Translations under genes and position numbers: made by a program
NCBI GenBank assembly: GCA_019637105.1
Contig: JAHBWF010000009.1
Span: forward strand, 32,854-96,853
Reading direction: 5' to 3'
Source of the DNA: Labilithrix sp.
GTDB lineage: Bacteria; Myxococcota_A; Polyangia; Polyangiales; Polyangiaceae
DNA: 64,000 nucleotides
Shown here: piece by piece, positions 40,793-59,327 of the stretch
How positions within the stretch are numbered: position 1 is the stretch's first letter
How the letters are laid out: each line of letters opens with the position of its first letter
The notes under the pieces: model-generated
What the model saw: only the letters and a program-made list of their open reading frames with translations
What the model was told of the DNA's origin: nothing
Database searches by the model: none

Positions 40793-41226
40793 GCCGCGGA
40801 CGCGCCGTTTGGCCCCGCCCGGTCGCTCGCCCGCGGCGGGCGGCCTATCCCATTAGGGCCTGTGGGCAACCCGGCGGACCGGGCTGGGGAGATCCGGCGG
40901 GCGCGGTTGAGGAGTCGCCGTGGGACAATCTCATCCACCGCGAGGCCGGAGCTTCTTCCCCCTCGCGTCCCCATCCGGACGGAGCGTCTCCGATGGAAAC
41001 TTCAGCCGATCTTCCGTTTTCCCCAGAGCCCACAGGCCCTATATCTACGGTAAGTTAATTTAATACCTCTCCCTTCTCTATCCGACAGGCGAACCGAGCC
41101 TCGAGGACAGCGCGCGCCGGCGCGCGGCCGCGCGGTCCTTCCCGCAGGACGGTGGCCCTTGACGTCGAAGGACACCCCAGGCAATTGGCATGAGCCGCTG
41201 AGAGACCTCAGCGCCGAGGACACGAG
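40793..41226. other. Intergenic region upstream of dnaN; possible origin or control region
   Basis: This 434-base gap has no coding frame. It contains a perfect 14-bp inverted repeat (TAGGGCCTGTGGGC at 40854-40867 and its complement at 41028-41041), an A/T-rich patch at 41040-41068 in otherwise very GC-rich DNA, and three 9-mers two mismatches away from the DnaA-box consensus (40861-40869, 40931-40939, 41017-41025). The TATATC at 41040-41045 lies 17 bases after TTTTCC and could be the dnaN promoter. No dnaA gene adjoins, so an origin is possible but unproven. Confidence 0.5.
41196..41213 (+). promoter_or_regulatory. Hairpin immediately before the dnaN ribosome binding site
   Basis: A perfect 7-bp stem (CGCTGAG / CTCAGCG) with a four-base loop ends three bases before the GAGGA ribosome binding site (41216-41220) of dnaN. 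It could influence dnaN translation. Confidence 0.5.
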
Positions 41227-42393
41227 ATGGAGCTCACCGTCGCGAAGAAGGACCTGCTGAAGATCGTCACGCGGATGCAGGGGGTCGCCGAGCGCAAGAG
41301 CACGATGCCCGTGCTCGCGAACGTGCTGCTCGCCGCGGACGGCAACAACGCGCTCCGGCTGGCCGCGACCGACCTCTACCTCTCGCTGATGGGCAGGATC
41401 CCGGCGGAAATCACGAAGCCGGGCAGCGTCGCCGTGTCCGCCAAGGACCTGTTCGAGCGGGTGAAGATGATGCCGGACGGCCCGGTCGTCATCTCCTCGC
41501 AGGACAACGCGACGACGACGATCAAGGCGAGCGGCACCGCCCGCCGCTACACGCTCCGCGGCATGCCAGGGGACGACTTCCCCCCGCTCCCGCAGCCCGC
41601 CGAGGGCTCCCCGACGCTCGCGCTCGACGTCGACGTCCTGTCGGAGCTCATCGCCAAGACCCACTTCTCGATCTCGACCGACGAGACGCGCGCGCACCTG
41701 AACAGCGCGCTCTTCGAGTGGGACGGCGACGTCGTGCGGATGGTGACGACCGACGGGCACCGCCTCTCGAAGGTGGACGTGAAGGTCTCGGGCCGTCAGG
41801 CGTCGGCGACGATGCTCATCCCGCTCAAGGCCATCCAGGAGCTGCGCCGGCTCTGCGACGAGATGCTCTCGGACGGCGGCGCGGTCGCCGCGGACGGGGA
41901 GCGGAAGAAGCCGGAGCTGCTCATCACGCAGAGCGGCGCCAGCGCGTTCTTCCAGGGGGCGGGCACGACGTTCAGCGTGAAGCTCGTCGACGCGCAGTTC
42001 CCCCCCTACTCGCAGGTGATCCCGCAAGCGAGCGAGAAGGTCGTCCGCGCCCCCCGATCGGCGCTCGCCGACGCCCTCAAGGCGGTCTCGGTCGCGGCCA
42101 GCGAGCGCACCGGCGGCGTGAAGCTGTCGCTCTCCAAGGGCTCGATGCGCATCACCAGCGAGTCGCCGGAGAGCGGGGACGGCTTCGACGAGATCCCGGT
42201 CGAGTTCGCGGGCCCGAACATGAGCATCGGCTTCAACGCGAAGTACTTCCTCGACGTCCTCGCGGCGATCAGCGACGAGGAGGTCGCGATCGGCCTGTCC
42301 GGAGAGCTCGATCCCGCCGTCCTCCGGCCCGCGGGAGCGACCACGTCGTCCGAGCGACAGTTCCTGTCGGTCGTGATGCCGATGCGGATCTGA
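41227..42393 (+). CDS. dnaN: DNA polymerase III beta sliding clamp
   Basis: The 388-aa product is the ring-shaped sliding clamp that tethers DNA polymerase III to DNA. Three repeated clamp domains are visible; typical segments include the opening MELTVAKKDLLKIVTRMQGV, the TTDGHRLSKVDV strand in domain 2, and the C-terminal LSVVMPMRI that forms part of the clamp-binding pocket. A small insertion in domain 2/3 (DGERKKPELL) is noted. It leads the dnaN-recF-gyrB series, with recF starting 83 bases downstream. ATG at 41227 has a GAGGA site. Confidence 0.97.
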   Translation: MELTVAKKDLLKIVTRMQGVAERKSTMPVLANVLLAADGNNALRLAATDLYLSLMGRIPAEITKPGSVAVSAKDLFERVKMMPDGPVVISSQDNATTTIKASGTARRYTLRGMPGDDFPPLPQPAEGSPTLALDVDVLSELIAKTHFSISTDETRAHLNSALFEWDGDVVRMVTTDGHRLSKVDVKVSGRQASATMLIPLKAIQELRRLCDEMLSDGGAVAADGERKKPELLITQSGASAFFQGAGTTFSVKLVDAQFPPYSQVIPQASEKVVRAPRSALADALKAVSVAASERTGGVKLSLSKGSMRITSESPESGDGFDEIPVEFAGPNMSIGFNAKYFLDVLAAISDEEVAIGLSGELDPAVLRPAGATTSSERQFLSVVMPMRI

Positions 42394-42476: not shown

Positions 42477-43580
42477 ATGAGGCCGCTTCGTATCGAGCAG
42501 ATGCAGGTCCGGTCGTTCCGGAACCTCGAGCGCGTCGACCTCGAGCTCGGTGAGCGCTTCAACGTCGTCGCGGGCGACAACGGCCAGGGCAAGACGAACC
42601 TCCTCGAGGCGGTCTACGTCCTCGCCACGTCGAAGAGCTTCCGCACCTCGAAGCCGACGGACGTCGTGTCGTTCGAGCGCGATCTCGCCAGCGTGCGCGG
42701 TCGGATCGTCGAGGACGGCGACGCGCGCGTTCAGTCGGTCGGGATCCGCGTCGGGGCGCGCACGGTGAAGATCGACGACAAGCGCCCGCCGACGCTCGCG
42801 GCGTACGCGGTGCGGACTCCGATCGTCGTGTTTCACCCGGGCGAGATCTCGCTCTCGATGGGCCCGAGCTCGGAGCGCCGGCGCCTCCTCGACCGCGCCG
42901 CGCTCTACCTCGCCCCCGCCGCGATGGACGAGCTCGAGAGCTACACCAAGGCCCTGCGCGCCCGGCAGCGCGCGCTCGAGACGCGCGGGCCGGCGGCGTC
43001 GGACCTCCCCGAATGGGAGACCCTCTGCGTGCGCCACGGGCTCGCGTTGATGGAGCACCGCGCTCGCGCCGGAGAGCTCCTCGCCGAGGGGGCGCGGGCT
43101 GCGTTCGCGCGCATCGCCTCCCCCGAGCTCTCGCTGTCGGTCGAGTTCGCTCCGGGGGCCCCGCGCGAAGAAGCCGCGTTCCGCGAGGAGCTCGAGCGCC
43201 GCCGCTCCGTCGACGCGAGGCGAGGGAGCGCGGGCGTCGGGCCCCACCGCGACGATCTCGCGCTGTCGATCTCGGGGCGTCCGGTCCGCGGCGTGGCCTC
43301 GCAGGGGCAGCACCGCGCGGTGACCCTCTCGCTGAAGGCCGCGGAGATCGACGTCATCGGCGGCGCGAGGGGCGCGCGTCCGGTGCTCCTCCTCGACGAC
43401 GTCTCGAGCGAGCTCGATCGCGAGCGGACGGCGGCGCTGTTCTCGTTCCTCCGCGATCTCGAGGGACAGGTGCTCCTCACGACGACGCGCCCGGAGCTCA
43501 TCGACACCGGCGCCGCCGCGGCGCGGTCGGACTTCGTGATCCGCGCCGGGAACCTCGAGCGAGTTTCTCGCGTTGATTGA
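42477..43580 (+). CDS. recF: Recombination mediator RecF
   Basis: A 367-aa SMC-like ABC ATPase that loads RecA at single-strand gaps with RecO and RecR. Walker A is GDNGQGKTN, the signature motif region is ASQGQHRAVTLSLKAAE, and Walker B with D-loop is PVLLLDDVSSELD, all in normal spacing; IRVGARTVKIDDKR and the GPSSERRRLLDR arm are typical. The gene sits between dnaN and gyrB as in many bacteria. Confidence 0.96.
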   Translation: MRPLRIEQMQVRSFRNLERVDLELGERFNVVAGDNGQGKTNLLEAVYVLATSKSFRTSKPTDVVSFERDLASVRGRIVEDGDARVQSVGIRVGARTVKIDDKRPPTLAAYAVRTPIVVFHPGEISLSMGPSSERRRLLDRAALYLAPAAMDELESYTKALRARQRALETRGPAASDLPEWETLCVRHGLALMEHRARAGELLAEGARAAFARIASPELSLSVEFAPGAPREEAAFREELERRRSVDARRGSAGVGPHRDDLALSISGRPVRGVASQGQHRAVTLSLKAAEIDVIGGARGARPVLLLDDVSSELDRERTAALFSFLRDLEGQVLLTTTRPELIDTGAAAARSDFVIRAGNLERVSRVD

Positions 43581-43709: not shown

Positions 43710-46457
<2,748 letters not shown>

Positions 46458-56612: not shown

Positions 56613-57042
56613 CGCGAGCACGTCCTCCCGGGACATGAATCTGTCCGGGGTCGAACACATCGATCGGCACTTCCTCGCGACGCTCCGTCTCGCCGATCTC
56701 GGGCGCATGCGCCGGCGCCAAGACCGAGTCGCGCGATGCGCTCTTCGAGCGCCAAGCCGCAGGCCGCTCCTCGAGCGACGACGTCGCTGTCCGTCAACGC
56801 GCGCGTCCGCGCGTCCGACGGCGCGTGAAGGGCGCCGGACGTTCGCGGGAGGATCCTCGGGAACGGCGTCTCGCCGGCCCCTACCGGTTCGCCGCAGCGG
56901 CGGCGAGCGCCGAGCCCACGCGCCGCCGGCGATGTCGAGCCCGTCGAGAGAGCGCGTCGTCGCGGGCCGCCGCCGAGCGGACCGAGTGCTCCTCGTGTGC
57001 GTCTCCCGACGCGAGGAGCTCGCTCGAGATGCCCCACGTGGG

Positions 57043-57158
57043 CGGCGAGCGCGGTTGACGCTGCGAAGCCACGGAGACGTCGCTCCGCGGCGTCGGGCGT
57101 CTGCTCAGGGAGCTCGGCCGCGGCGAGCGCGGTCGAGGCTGCGAAGCGCCGAGACGTC
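57043..57158. repeat. Degenerate 38-bp direct repeat pair
   Basis: CGGCGAGCGCGGTTGACGCT at 57043 and CGGCGAGCGCGGTCGAGGCT at 57121 open two related units that both run on through GCGAAG to a GAGACGTC end. They lie just after the bioD stop. Confidence 0.7.
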
Positions 57159-57179: not shown

Positions 57180-57860
57180 TCAGGCGGGCACGAGGGCGGC
57201 GAGCGTGGCGTCGAAGCGGGGCGCGAGGTCGTCGGCTCCGGCGCGAGGGAGGGAGGCGAGGACCGGCGGGGTGGGGAGGACACGCGCGAGCTCGTCGGCG
57301 TTCGTCCCGACGGAGGCGTCGGTCTCGAGGGCCGCCGAGAGGACGAGGCCGCCGAACGCGATCCCTTCGGCGCGCGCCGCCCGGGTCGTCGCCACGACGT
57401 CGTGGAGCACGCCGAGGCGGTCCGGCGCGACGAGGACGACGTGCGTCGGCGCGAGCGCGAGGAGCAGGTCGGCGTTCGTCGAGGTGTCGCTCAGCGGGCT
57501 GAAGAGCCCGCCCGGCAGCTCCAGCACGATCGCGTCGGCCGCGGCGCGGAGGGGCGCGAGCCAGTCGACGACGACGCGGAGGTCGATCGCCCGCCCGGCC
57601 CGACGCGCCGCGAGGTGCGGGGACACTGGGTCGGCGAGCAGGTAGGGCGGTGGGAAACGTGTCACGTGAAACGTGGACACCCGTCCAAGCTCGAGCACGT
57701 CGCCGCTCGGAGGACCCGCCGGCGCCACTCCGGACTCGATCGGCTTCACGCCCGCGACGGAGGCGCCCCGCCTGGCCCACGCCGCGACGAGGCCCGTGGA
57801 GACGACGGTCTTGCCGATCCCGGTGCCTGTGCCGGTCACGAGCAGGAGCGGGGCGCTCAT
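57180..57860 (-). CDS. bioD: Dethiobiotin synthetase
   Basis: A 226-aa enzyme that forms dethiobiotin from 7,8-diaminononanoate, CO2 and ATP in the biotin pathway. The P-loop GTGTGIGKTVVSTGL, the conserved Lys/Ser of GVKPIESG, and the substrate loop ELPGGLFSPLSDTSTNADLL are all present. Its ATG overlaps the bioF stop by four bases, so the two biotin genes are coupled. bioA and bioB are not in this window. Confidence 0.92.
   Translation of the reverse strand: MSAPLLLVTGTGTGIGKTVVSTGLVAAWARRGASVAGVKPIESGVAPAGPPSGDVLELGRVSTFHVTRFPPPYLLADPVSPHLAARRAGRAIDLRVVVDWLAPLRAAADAIVLELPGGLFSPLSDTSTNADLLLALAPTHVVLVAPDRLGVLHDVVATTRAARAEGIAFGGLVLSAALETDASVGTNADELARVLPTPPVLASLPRAGADDLAPRFDATLAALVPA
57658..57673 (+). 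promoter_or_regulatory. parS-like site A
   Basis: CGTGTCACGTGAAACG matches 13 of 16 bases of the classical bacterial parS motif (TGTTTCACGTGAAACA), with the central CACGTG intact. It sits inside bioD. Confidence 0.5.
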
Positions 57861-58975
57861 CCGTGGCGCTCGAAGGCTCGGCGGCAGGCGTCGAGGGCGC
57901 GCTCGACGTCGCTCGCGTCGTGTCGGGCCGTCAGGGTGAAGCGCAGCCTCGCTGTGCCCTCCGGCACGGTCGGCGGACGGATCGGGGGCACGATGAGCCC
58001 CTCGCTCGCGAGCGCGCTCGAGAGCGCCGCGGCCCGCCCGCTCGCGCCGACGACGACGGGCACGACATGCCCGAAGCCGAGCGGCCGGCGATCGAGGGCG
58101 GCCAGCCCCTCACGCATCCGGGTCGCGAGCGCGTGGACCTTGTCGCGCCGCTCGGGCGATCCCGCGACCTCGACGAGCGCGCGCGTCGCGGCCGCGGCGA
58201 CGGCCGGAGAGAGGCCCGTCGAGAAGACGAACGAGCGAGCTCGATTCCAGAGCCACTCTCGGAGCACGTGGCTCCCCGCGACGAACGCCCCCTGGCCGCC
58301 GAACGCCTTCCCGAGCGTGCCGACGAAGACGTCGGGGGAGACGCCCGCCGCCGCCGCCAGGCCGCGCCCCCGAGGGCCGAACATCCCGAGCGCGTGCGCC
58401 TCGTCGAGGTACAGCGCCGCGCCGTGATCGTCGCAGACGCGGCGCAGCCCGACGAGGTCCGGGCCGTCGGCGTCCATGCTGTAGTAGCTCTCGGCCACGA
58501 CCCACGCGCGCTCCTCCTTCCGGCCGCGGAGCGCGGCGGAGACGGCGTCGAGGTCGTTGTGCGGCGTGATGACGACGCGCGCGCGCGAGAGCCTCGCGCC
58601 GTCGATGAGCGAGGCGTGGTTCAGCGCGTCGCTGACGACGAGATCGCCCGGCGCCGCGAGCGCCGAGACCGCGCCGACGTTCGCCGCGTACCCCGACGTG
58701 AAGACGAGGCAGGACGGCACCTCGAGCCACGCCGCGATCGCCGCTTCGAGCTCGGCGTGGGCGCGGCGCTCGCCGGCGATGAGCCGCGACGCGCCGGAGC
58801 CGACCGCCACGTCGTCGGGCGCGAAACGACCCGCGAGGCCCAGGTAGTCGTTCGAGCAGAAGGAGAGGGCGCCGTCGTCGAGCGGCGGAGGCGTCGAGCG
58901 GCGCAGGCCGCGCTCCTCGAGCTCGGCGAGGGCGCCGCGCAGGTGGGCGAGGGGGCCGTCAGGTTGGTGTGTCAC
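57857..58975 (-). CDS. bioF: 8-amino-7-oxononanoate synthase
   Basis: A 372-aa PLP enzyme of the alpha-oxoamine synthase family that condenses pimeloyl-thioester with L-alanine in biotin synthesis. Features include SNDYLGLAG, GSGASRLIAG, the DEAHALGMFG motif, the PLP-binding Lys in TLGKAFGGQGAFVAG, and STGLSP. Related enzymes include serine palmitoyltransferase, but the four-base overlap with bioD favours BioF. Start is a GTG at 58973-58975, which lies within parS-like site B. Confidence 0.9.
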   Translation of the reverse strand: MTHQPDGPLAHLRGALAELEERGLRRSTPPPLDDGALSFCSNDYLGLAGRFAPDDVAVGSGASRLIAGERRAHAELEAAIAAWLEVPSCLVFTSGYAANVGAVSALAAPGDLVVSDALNHASLIDGARLSRARVVITPHNDLDAVSAALRGRKEERAWVVAESYYSMDADGPDLVGLRRVCDDHGAALYLDEAHALGMFGPRGRGLAAAAGVSPDVFVGTLGKAFGGQGAFVAGSHVLREWLWNRARSFVFSTGLSPAVAAAATRALVEVAGSPERRDKVHALATRMREGLAALDRRPLGFGHVVPVVVGASGRAAALSSALASEGLIVPPIRPPTVPEGTARLRFTLTARHDASDVERALDACRRAFERHG

Positions 58976-58983
58976 GTGAAACG
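58968..58983 (+). promoter_or_regulatory. parS-like site B
   Basis: TGTGTCACGTGAAACG matches 14 of 16 bases of the classical parS consensus. It overlaps the start codon of bioF and shares 14 identical consecutive bases with site A, 1.3 kb away. Confidence 0.55.
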
Positions 58984-59030: not shown

Positions 59031-59327
59031 TCACTGCTCCGACGCGCAGTCCAGTGCGTCGTCGATACGACCGAGGACGCGGCGGAGCATCTCCTTAGCG
59101 CGTCGCTCGACCGTGAGTCGACGGGCGCGTTCCTCCTCGAGCTCGTGCGCGAGCGCGATCGCCGCGAGGATCACGGCCTGCGGGGCCGCGGTCCGACCGA
59201 GCGGCGTGAGCTCCTCGACCTTGGCGGTGACCGTGTCGGCGAGCCGCTGGAGCTCTTCCTCGCTGGCGCTGCTGACGACCTTGTAGCTCTGCCCGGCGAT
59301 GCGGAGGCTCACGGCGCGTCCATCCAT
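59031..59327 (-). CDS. zapA: Cell division protein ZapA family
   Basis: A 98-aa protein with the ZapA fold: a short beta-rich start (AVSLRIAGQSYKVVSS), a conserved Ala/Leu-rich helix (PQAVILAAIALAHELEEERAR) and a long helix with a coiled-coil tail. ZapA bundles FtsZ filaments at the division ring. Length and layout are typical. It lies 55 bases upstream of bioF on the same strand, so may share a promoter with it. Confidence 0.85.
   Translation of the reverse strand: MDGRAVSLRIAGQSYKVVSSASEEELQRLADTVTAKVEELTPLGRTAAPQAVILAAIALAHELEEERARRLTVERRAKEMLRRVLGRIDDALDCASEQ

Follow-up and report, generated by a model that had tools for sequence, protein, structure and literature searches.

Two CACGTG-centered palindromes, one at the start of bioF and the other inside bioD, very probably form the chromosomal parS centromere of a Labilithrix-like bacterium, as judged by comparison of sequences. 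They are carried by a 64-kb stretch of DNA (the window; G000:C324:32854-96853) from a draft genome of 8,454,228 bases in 334 contigs that is 91.5% complete, and whose closest named records by BioF are the MAGs Labilithrix sp., Myxococcales bacterium 68-20 and Polyangiaceae bacterium. A first-pass annotation had already read both palindromes as parS, and this reading gains support from their rarity in the genome, from their conservation at the locus in relatives, and from a single ParB that carries the main residues for reading parS. The sites are ordinary in kind and unusual in address, and the parAB genes are not adjacent to them. For a group of bacteria whose genomes are very large, reaching 13.5 Mb in the searched set, the locus supplies a probable centromere and a probable origin of replication.

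Two parS-like sites at bioF and bioD

The sites and the genes that carry or adjoin them are as follows.

57180-57860, minus strand: bioD, 226 aa, with site 1 within its coding sequence (TIGR00347, 114.1 bits, exceeding the cut-off of 83.3)
57658-57673, plus strand: parS-like site 1, CGTGTCACGTGAAACG, with 13 of 16 matches to TGTTTCACGTGAAACA (3 mismatches)
57857-58975, minus strand: bioF, 372 aa, carrying site 2 at its start
58968-58983, plus strand: parS-like site 2, TGTGTCACGTGAAACG, with 14 of 16 matches to TGTTTCACGTGAAACA (2 mismatches)
59031-59312, minus strand: zapA-like gene (PF05164), upstream of bioF, which in relatives often adjoins parS sites

Both 16-mers are located where the first-pass annotation had placed them, with the 13 and 14 matches it had counted. 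The run of consecutive bases that they have in common is 15 long (GTGTCACGTGAAACG), not 14 as had been reported. Relative to the perfect 16-mer, both sites carry G in place of T at position 4 and in place of A at position 16, and site 1 alone has a further change, C for T at position 1. Each is a 16-bp palindrome with a CACGTG core and arms of the GTT/AAC type expected of parS, except that one arm per site reads GTG rather than GTT. Specifically, the GTTTCAC arm of site 1 is intact on the minus strand, while the altered arm, GTGTCAC, is on the plus strand and faces the side proximal to oriC. Site 2 has the identical altered arm in the identical orientation. A further CACGTG palindrome, GCCCACGTGGGC at 57029-57044, is located just 3′ of bioD, and its arms are unlike those of parS.

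Site 2 spans the start codon of bioF, as had been noticed, and its CACGTG supplies the GTG codon itself (58975-58973, minus strand). The earlier description of the two sites as flanking bioF is loosely right, although site 1 actually resides within bioD. The best NCBIfam model for the bioF frame is TIGR00858 (bioF), with 359.3 bits against a model cut-off of 426.45. A Shine-Dalgarno-like GGAG occurs eight bases before the bioF start. Because site 2 sits between this GGAG and the start codon, ParB covering the site may reduce bioFD transcription. A scan for promoters and terminators around bioF gives no matches, and the same is true of tRNA and Rfam scans of the window.

Rarity in the genome and recurrence in relatives

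The 64-kb window has no match to TGTTTCACGTGAAACA with three or fewer mismatches besides sites 1 and 2. When the window is shuffled, the mean number of such sites is 0.01, and two sites arise in 0 of 100 shuffles. Similarly, GTKYCACGTGRMAC is present at only two places in the whole 8.45-Mb draft, and these are sites 1 and 2. Thus the motif is not spread evenly over the genome, the outcome that the first-pass annotation had named as fatal to its own proposal. Searching the entire genome for the full 16-mer with up to three mismatches yields four places: sites 1 and 2, a place on C265 whose core is broken, and TCGTTCACGTGAAAGA on C276. The count for the reversed pattern is likewise four. We also considered near matches to GTTNCACGTGNNAC as extra parS sites. 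With up to one mismatch there are 14 forward and 17 reverse matches versus 24 and 28 for the reversed-pattern control, and because these numbers are lower than those of the control, the matches beyond sites 1 and 2 are regarded as background and were rejected.

Among 59 genomes, including that of the window, GTKYCACGTGRMAC occurs in 46, with 115 sites in total, and is absent from 13. The reversed-pattern control gives 11 sites in 10 of the 59. Letters were inspected for 113 sites (all but the two of G052), of which 91 are the perfect GTTTCACGTGAAAC by hand count. Exactly two sites are present in 26 genomes, and hand counts indicate that 14 of these 26 pairs are spaced 1.2-1.5 kb apart, ten of them in genomes of the genus.

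A survey of one locus of up to 3 kb per genome, conducted by tblastn with the BioF, BioD and ZapA proteins of the window and covering 45 of the 46 genomes, reveals that bioF adjoins a site in all 13 genus genomes (by annotation in the case of the window's own genome). Either bioF or bioD is found beside a site in 11 of the 19 other family members and in 5 of 13 genomes from more distant groups. These counts are minimal, as several loci end at contig ends and as G019, G030 and G045 are represented by a variant site (G019 and G030 have perfect sites elsewhere than at the surveyed locus). Among named loci of the Polyangiaceae type (L088-L096), eight of nine carry the pair, and the one without it (L095) is cut upstream of bioF. 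Sites are found in none of nine bioF loci from other groups (L097-L105).

The exact place of the sites drifts. They are inside bioF in G017 and G018, four are present beyond the end of bioF in G006, and in G012 one sits at the start of bioF, with two more upstream of the gene. Such drift would be the behavior of a centromere bound to a locus, and is not expected of codon constraint or of a bioF operator.

These data bear on the idea that the palindromes form an operator for a regulator of the biotin pathway, one that controls bioFD rather than segregation. The position of site 2 between GGAG and the bioF start codon, the presence of site 1 in bioD, and a bio-gene association that extends beyond the family would all suit an operator. 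We nonetheless judge this explanation very improbable. No bioF or bioD match is found at 8 of the 19 loci from other family members or at 8 of the 13 from outside the family (some of which are cut by contig ends, with G019, G030 and G045 represented by the variant site), and the nine bioF loci of other groups lack the site altogether. Furthermore, site 1 is deep within bioD, the sites of G017 and G018 are inside bioF, and in nine outgroup genomes a site is located within 2 kb of parB.

Conservation and a shared change in one arm

Conservation that favors the centromere reading is evident in a bioF-bioD alignment of 11 species, comprising 10 of the 13 genus genomes (G001, G006 and G012 are excluded) plus G031, all picked for having the pair. 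At both places, 13 of 14 bases are invariant in these species, a level reached by 0.18% of windows in the alignment, where mean invariance is 0.20. At the bioF start the 14-mer is fixed while the bases on either side vary, and site 2 has an aligned counterpart in all 11 picked species. The 14-mer of site 1 is the same in G003, G004 and G007, and the perfect GTTTCACGTGAAAC occupies the aligned place in seven further picked species. Thus, in species picked for the pair, conservation at the locus exceeds what coding constraint alone would give.

Given that both sites touch coding sequence, one might propose a chance match that was retained through coding constraint. The shuffle expectation of 0.01, the 115 sites versus 11 in the reversed-pattern control, and the conservation of the bioF-start site but not of its neighboring bases in the 11 picked species render this explanation close to negligible.

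The form of the sites in the window is shared by a small clade. GTGTCACGTGAAAC is present at both places and in the same orientation in the window's genome (G000) and in G003, G004 and G007, and in the window the changed arm points towards oriC. Perfect sites are the rule in the other nine genomes of the genus, with the exception of one GTTCCAC arm in G006. The pairs elsewhere in the genus and family resemble that of the window in location, which is the same locus in all 13 genus genomes, but differ in that they are mostly the perfect GTTTCACGTGAAAC. Two order-level relatives, G038 and G050, have perfect and altered sites mixed, which indicates that a change in one arm is tolerated elsewhere.

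Could the altered arm instead mark both sites as weak relics of parS, with the working centromere elsewhere or in missing sequence? The same arm deviates in both sites, and a draft in 334 contigs that is 91.5% complete leaves room for such an arrangement. However, four species share one and the same variant 14-mer at both places, with 14 of 14 bases invariant where mean invariance is 0.59 and 2.5% of windows are equal, which is modest support for function. In addition, G003, G004 and G007 likewise have just two sites of the class each, the bioF/bioD pair. We therefore consider decay of the sites quite improbable, and favor working parS sites.

The paired change may have arisen through two hits in an ancestor shared by the clade, through gene conversion, or through selection. 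A switch in ParB specificity that matches the variant sites was rejected for now, as there is no change in the reading helix. GKDRTTIANSLRLLKLP is identical in G000, G003, G004, G007, G006 and G012, and one or two residues differ in the remainder of the genus. G006 and G012 share it though their sites are perfect or GTTCCAC-armed. By eye, the ParB differences specific to the clade are T for V/L before the helix-turn-helix and Q for G after it, both outside residues 162-207. Whatever its cause, the paired change, present in four species, serves as a natural experiment that bears on the degree of asymmetry a centromere will tolerate.

A candidate replication origin upstream of dnaN

The first-pass annotation had proposed that the region is close to the chromosome origin, pointing to dnaN, recF and gyrB 12-17 kb away. 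The three genes are about 11-16 kb from site 1, and the proposal is supported by an oriC-like block found upstream of dnaN.

40860-41070, plus strand: candidate oriC/unwinding element, upstream of dnaN and about 17 kb from the sites; its parts are TTTTCCCCA (41017-41025), CCCACAGGCCCTA..CTA (about 41029-41048) and TTAATTTAATA (41055-41065)
41227-42393, plus strand: dnaN (DNA polymerase III beta clamp)
42477-43580, plus strand: recF (TIGR00611, cut-off exceeded)
43908-46457, plus strand: gyrB

The 434 bases upstream of dnaN contain a block, parts of which recur in 15 aligned genomes: a TTNTCCC-like 9-mer, a CCACAGG-like element, CTA repeats, and a stretch rich in AT (for instance TTAATTTAA) that is absent from G031. 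The candidate oriC also holds an inverted pair, CCTGTGGGC / GCCCACAGG. No other 400 bases of the window are as dense in 9-mers that come within two mismatches of TTATCCACA, with 3 here versus an average of 0.14, and no 9-mer within one mismatch is present on the dnaN side of the window. The order of parts resembles the unwinding element of the B. subtilis type, in which DnaA boxes are arranged with DnaA-trios (3′-GAT-5′) (PMC6669920): DnaA-box-like 9-mers are followed by CTA (3′-GAT-5′) repeats and an AT-rich stretch. It is unlike that element in that dnaA is not adjacent in the window and the boxes are two mismatches off the consensus. The two parS-like sites, at one place about 17 kb from this block, fit the picture of a centromere made of few sites near the replication origin.

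Skew data from two relatives also support an origin near the locus. The genome of G031 is a single contig of 12,242,832 bases, with parS and dnaN at 11.063 and 11.081 Mb. Raw GC skew in this genome has a positive sign in 8 of the 10 samples taken between 11.59 Mb and, round the circle, 4.88 Mb; of the 10 taken between 5.49 and 10.98 Mb, 8 have a negative sign. The switch in sign implies that its origin should be near 11.0-11.6 Mb. The skew measure adopted here is the T-A skew at 4-fold sites, averaged over both gene strands. In G031 this measure is negative in 5 of 6 stretches between 10.68 and 10.98 Mb; beyond 11.00 Mb it is positive in 11 of 15, with one stretch without called genes omitted. 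On contig C9 of G006, where parS and dnaN are at 184 and 199 kb, hand averages are -0.13 for ten stretches below 200 kb and +0.03 for ten above, and the 4-fold GC skew of this genome moves weakly in the same direction (-0.015 to +0.028). Skew samples from G048 show no clear origin pattern.

Raw GC skew within the window flips from negative to positive at about 47 kb. We rejected this flip as evidence for the origin because an excess of C on coding strands coincides there with a change in gene direction: the 4-fold sites of coding strands on this contig have mostly C over G, whichever direction the genes point. Simple GC-skew origin calls can therefore mislead in this genome.

An oriC beside dnaA was considered for G031 and rejected. 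The 20 kb after the dnaA start have no box within one mismatch, and the 20 kb before it have two, close together. By comparison, the dnaN side of G031 has three boxes within one mismatch and seven within two; across 40 sampled 20-kb stretches of this genome and one further stretch before dnaA, no other place has three such one-mismatch 9-mers within 600 bp. The dnaA regions of the window's genome and of G006 have one and two DnaA-box-like 9-mers, respectively. Since no box within one mismatch is present on the dnaN side of the window, the number of boxes does not by itself settle the matter for its own genome; for the relatives, an origin on the dnaN side is supported by skew.

The location of dnaA varies within the order. 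The gene is at G000:C139:7083-8480 in the window's genome, and a hand count finds dnaA and dnaN on one contig in 0 of the 32 drafts of the family that have both. They are more than 1.1 Mb apart in the single contig of G031, and are neighbors in several other families of the order (e.g. G037, G038). A second DnaA-like match at G000:C266:37602-38445 comes in three pieces with differing open-frame lengths, the full dnaA being on C139. In addition, eleven 334-aa frames scattered over G031:C1 match the DnaA domain across equal profile ranges; they may be IstB-type ATPases of transposons.

A single ParB with parS-type reading residues

Searches with TIGR00180 and PF02195 find a single copy of ParB in the genome, at C299:33049-33570 (L023). 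Its ParB_N, HTH_ParB and ParB_C domains all exceed their cut-offs. Its top NCBIfam score is to the Noc model TIGR04285, with 221.9 bits under a cut-off of 315, whereas TIGR00180 is over its own cut-off. The nearest solved chain is a ParB (7bnk, E 1.3e-57), followed by Noc and Spo0J (13 sequences). A frame for a ParA-type ATPase is located directly upstream of parB (AAA_31, E 1.1e-61).

Eight ParB residues that contact parS have been named for Caulobacter ParB (PMC7383237). In the register that we assigned, seven are present (Q162, G170, K171, R173, N178, G201 and R204), S172 is replaced by D, position 179 is S and position 184 is K. The latter residue is seen at 184 in Noc as well, but R173 and G201 are of the parS type and are not those of a Noc-type reader (Q173, R201). 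The genome therefore encodes a chromosomal ParB with the main residues for reading parS, and the second finding that the first-pass annotation would have taken against itself, a ParB lacking them, is not observed. The binding site of Noc is not known to have a CACGTG core, and sites 1 and 2, which have this core, are not assigned to the Noc class.

Separation of parAB from parS

The first-pass annotation advised locating parAB. These genes reside on a different contig from parS (C299 versus C324), and in one-contig relatives they are megabases away. In G031, parB and parS are 4.36 Mb apart, 71% of the way to the antipode, with dnaA 1.18 Mb off; in G048 the distance is 4.69 Mb, or 91% of the way, with dnaA 0.11 Mb off. 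A listed parS and a ParB over its cut-off are both present in 44 genomes, and they share a contig in 0 of the 42 drafts among these, although small contigs weaken most of the 42 cases; lower bounds on the distance are at least 0.76 Mb in G030 and at least 0.16 Mb in G003. Linkage to parAB, which is usual for chromosomal parS without defining it, is thus missing.

As a control for linkage, we searched 20 genomes of a 57-genome phylum sample, hand-picked and non-random, 18 of them from outside the class. Sites are present in 16 of the 20, 14 of these outside the class. In 9 of these 14, a site is located within 2 kb of parB. The five without linkage are all four searched genomes of family f19 and the draft G103. 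In the one-contig G065 of family f19, parB is about 2.3 Mb from parS. In the two remaining site-bearing genomes, G102 from the window's family and G097 from its class, separate contigs carry parS and parB. Across the phylum, parS is thus commonly linked to parB, and the unlinked layout is found in the order of the window as well as in f19.

ParAB-parS systems are encoded near oriC in most species (PMC7022226). Literature searches that covered parAB genes remote from parS, the taxa Sorangium, Polyangiales, Labilithrix and Anaeromyxobacter, and parS in connection with bioF did not reveal either arrangement in the titles or abstract beginnings of the matches listed.

Proposed function

By analogy with other members of its family, ParB produced from the parAB operon elsewhere in the genome would recognize the CACGTG-centered palindrome, close as a CTP-dependent clamp, and slide into adjacent DNA. 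The resulting complex would mark the origin region for movement driven by ParA. ParA, and probably SMC as well, would use this complex to separate the newly copied origin located approximately 17 kb away, upstream of dnaN. Each of these steps, from ParB binding and clamp loading to SMC loading and segregation, is modeled on what the family does. Several observations run counter to the centromere reading: each site in the window has one altered arm, parAB is unlinked, 13 of the 59 genomes lack the pattern, the top NCBIfam score of ParB belongs to the Noc model (below its cut-off), and the skew is unclear in G048 and, for GC at 4-fold sites, weak in G006.

A broader proposal, which we offer tentatively and consider rather doubtful, is that Polyangiales have split their ParABS system. 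The centromere would be held at the origin in bioF/bioD, whereas parAB would be far along the arm towards the terminus, such that ParB genes are copied late. In the clade of the window, the parS copies would have changed together into one-armed sites that face the same way, possibly giving a direction to the loading of ParB or SMC. With parAB remote from parS, the dosage of the ParB gene would be positionally uncoupled from segregation of the origin.

Comparison with known systems

The Pseudomonas aeruginosa system is similar in having few origin-proximal sites. Its ParB binds single GTTTCAC arms, with a few hundred half sites observed by ChIP-seq, and its parS1-4 overlap oriC (PMC10419367, PMC4368675). 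The sites of the window keep a GTTTCAC arm. They differ in being located about 17 kb from the oriC-like block, rather than on oriC as for parS1-4.

The best-studied relative, M. xanthus, has 22 parS sites with the consensus TGTTCCACGTGGAACG, clustered approximately 4 kb upstream of parA, and its parAB genes are about 35 kb from oriC (PMC3899335, PMC3778016). M. xanthus ParB binds approximately 10 times more weakly to a site with two changes in one arm (PMC3778016). These changes affect the position altered in the arm of the window's sites and its neighbor, whereas the window's sites have one change there. The first-pass annotation had drawn on Myxococcus for comparison, and the likeness extends to a 16-bp CACGTG palindrome that is proximal to the origin and a chromosomal ParB in the same phylum. 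The layout does not carry over: the window has two sites of the GTTTCAC type in bioF/bioD, with parAB unlinked on another contig. M. xanthus is thus no guide to how these elements are arranged in this group of bacteria.
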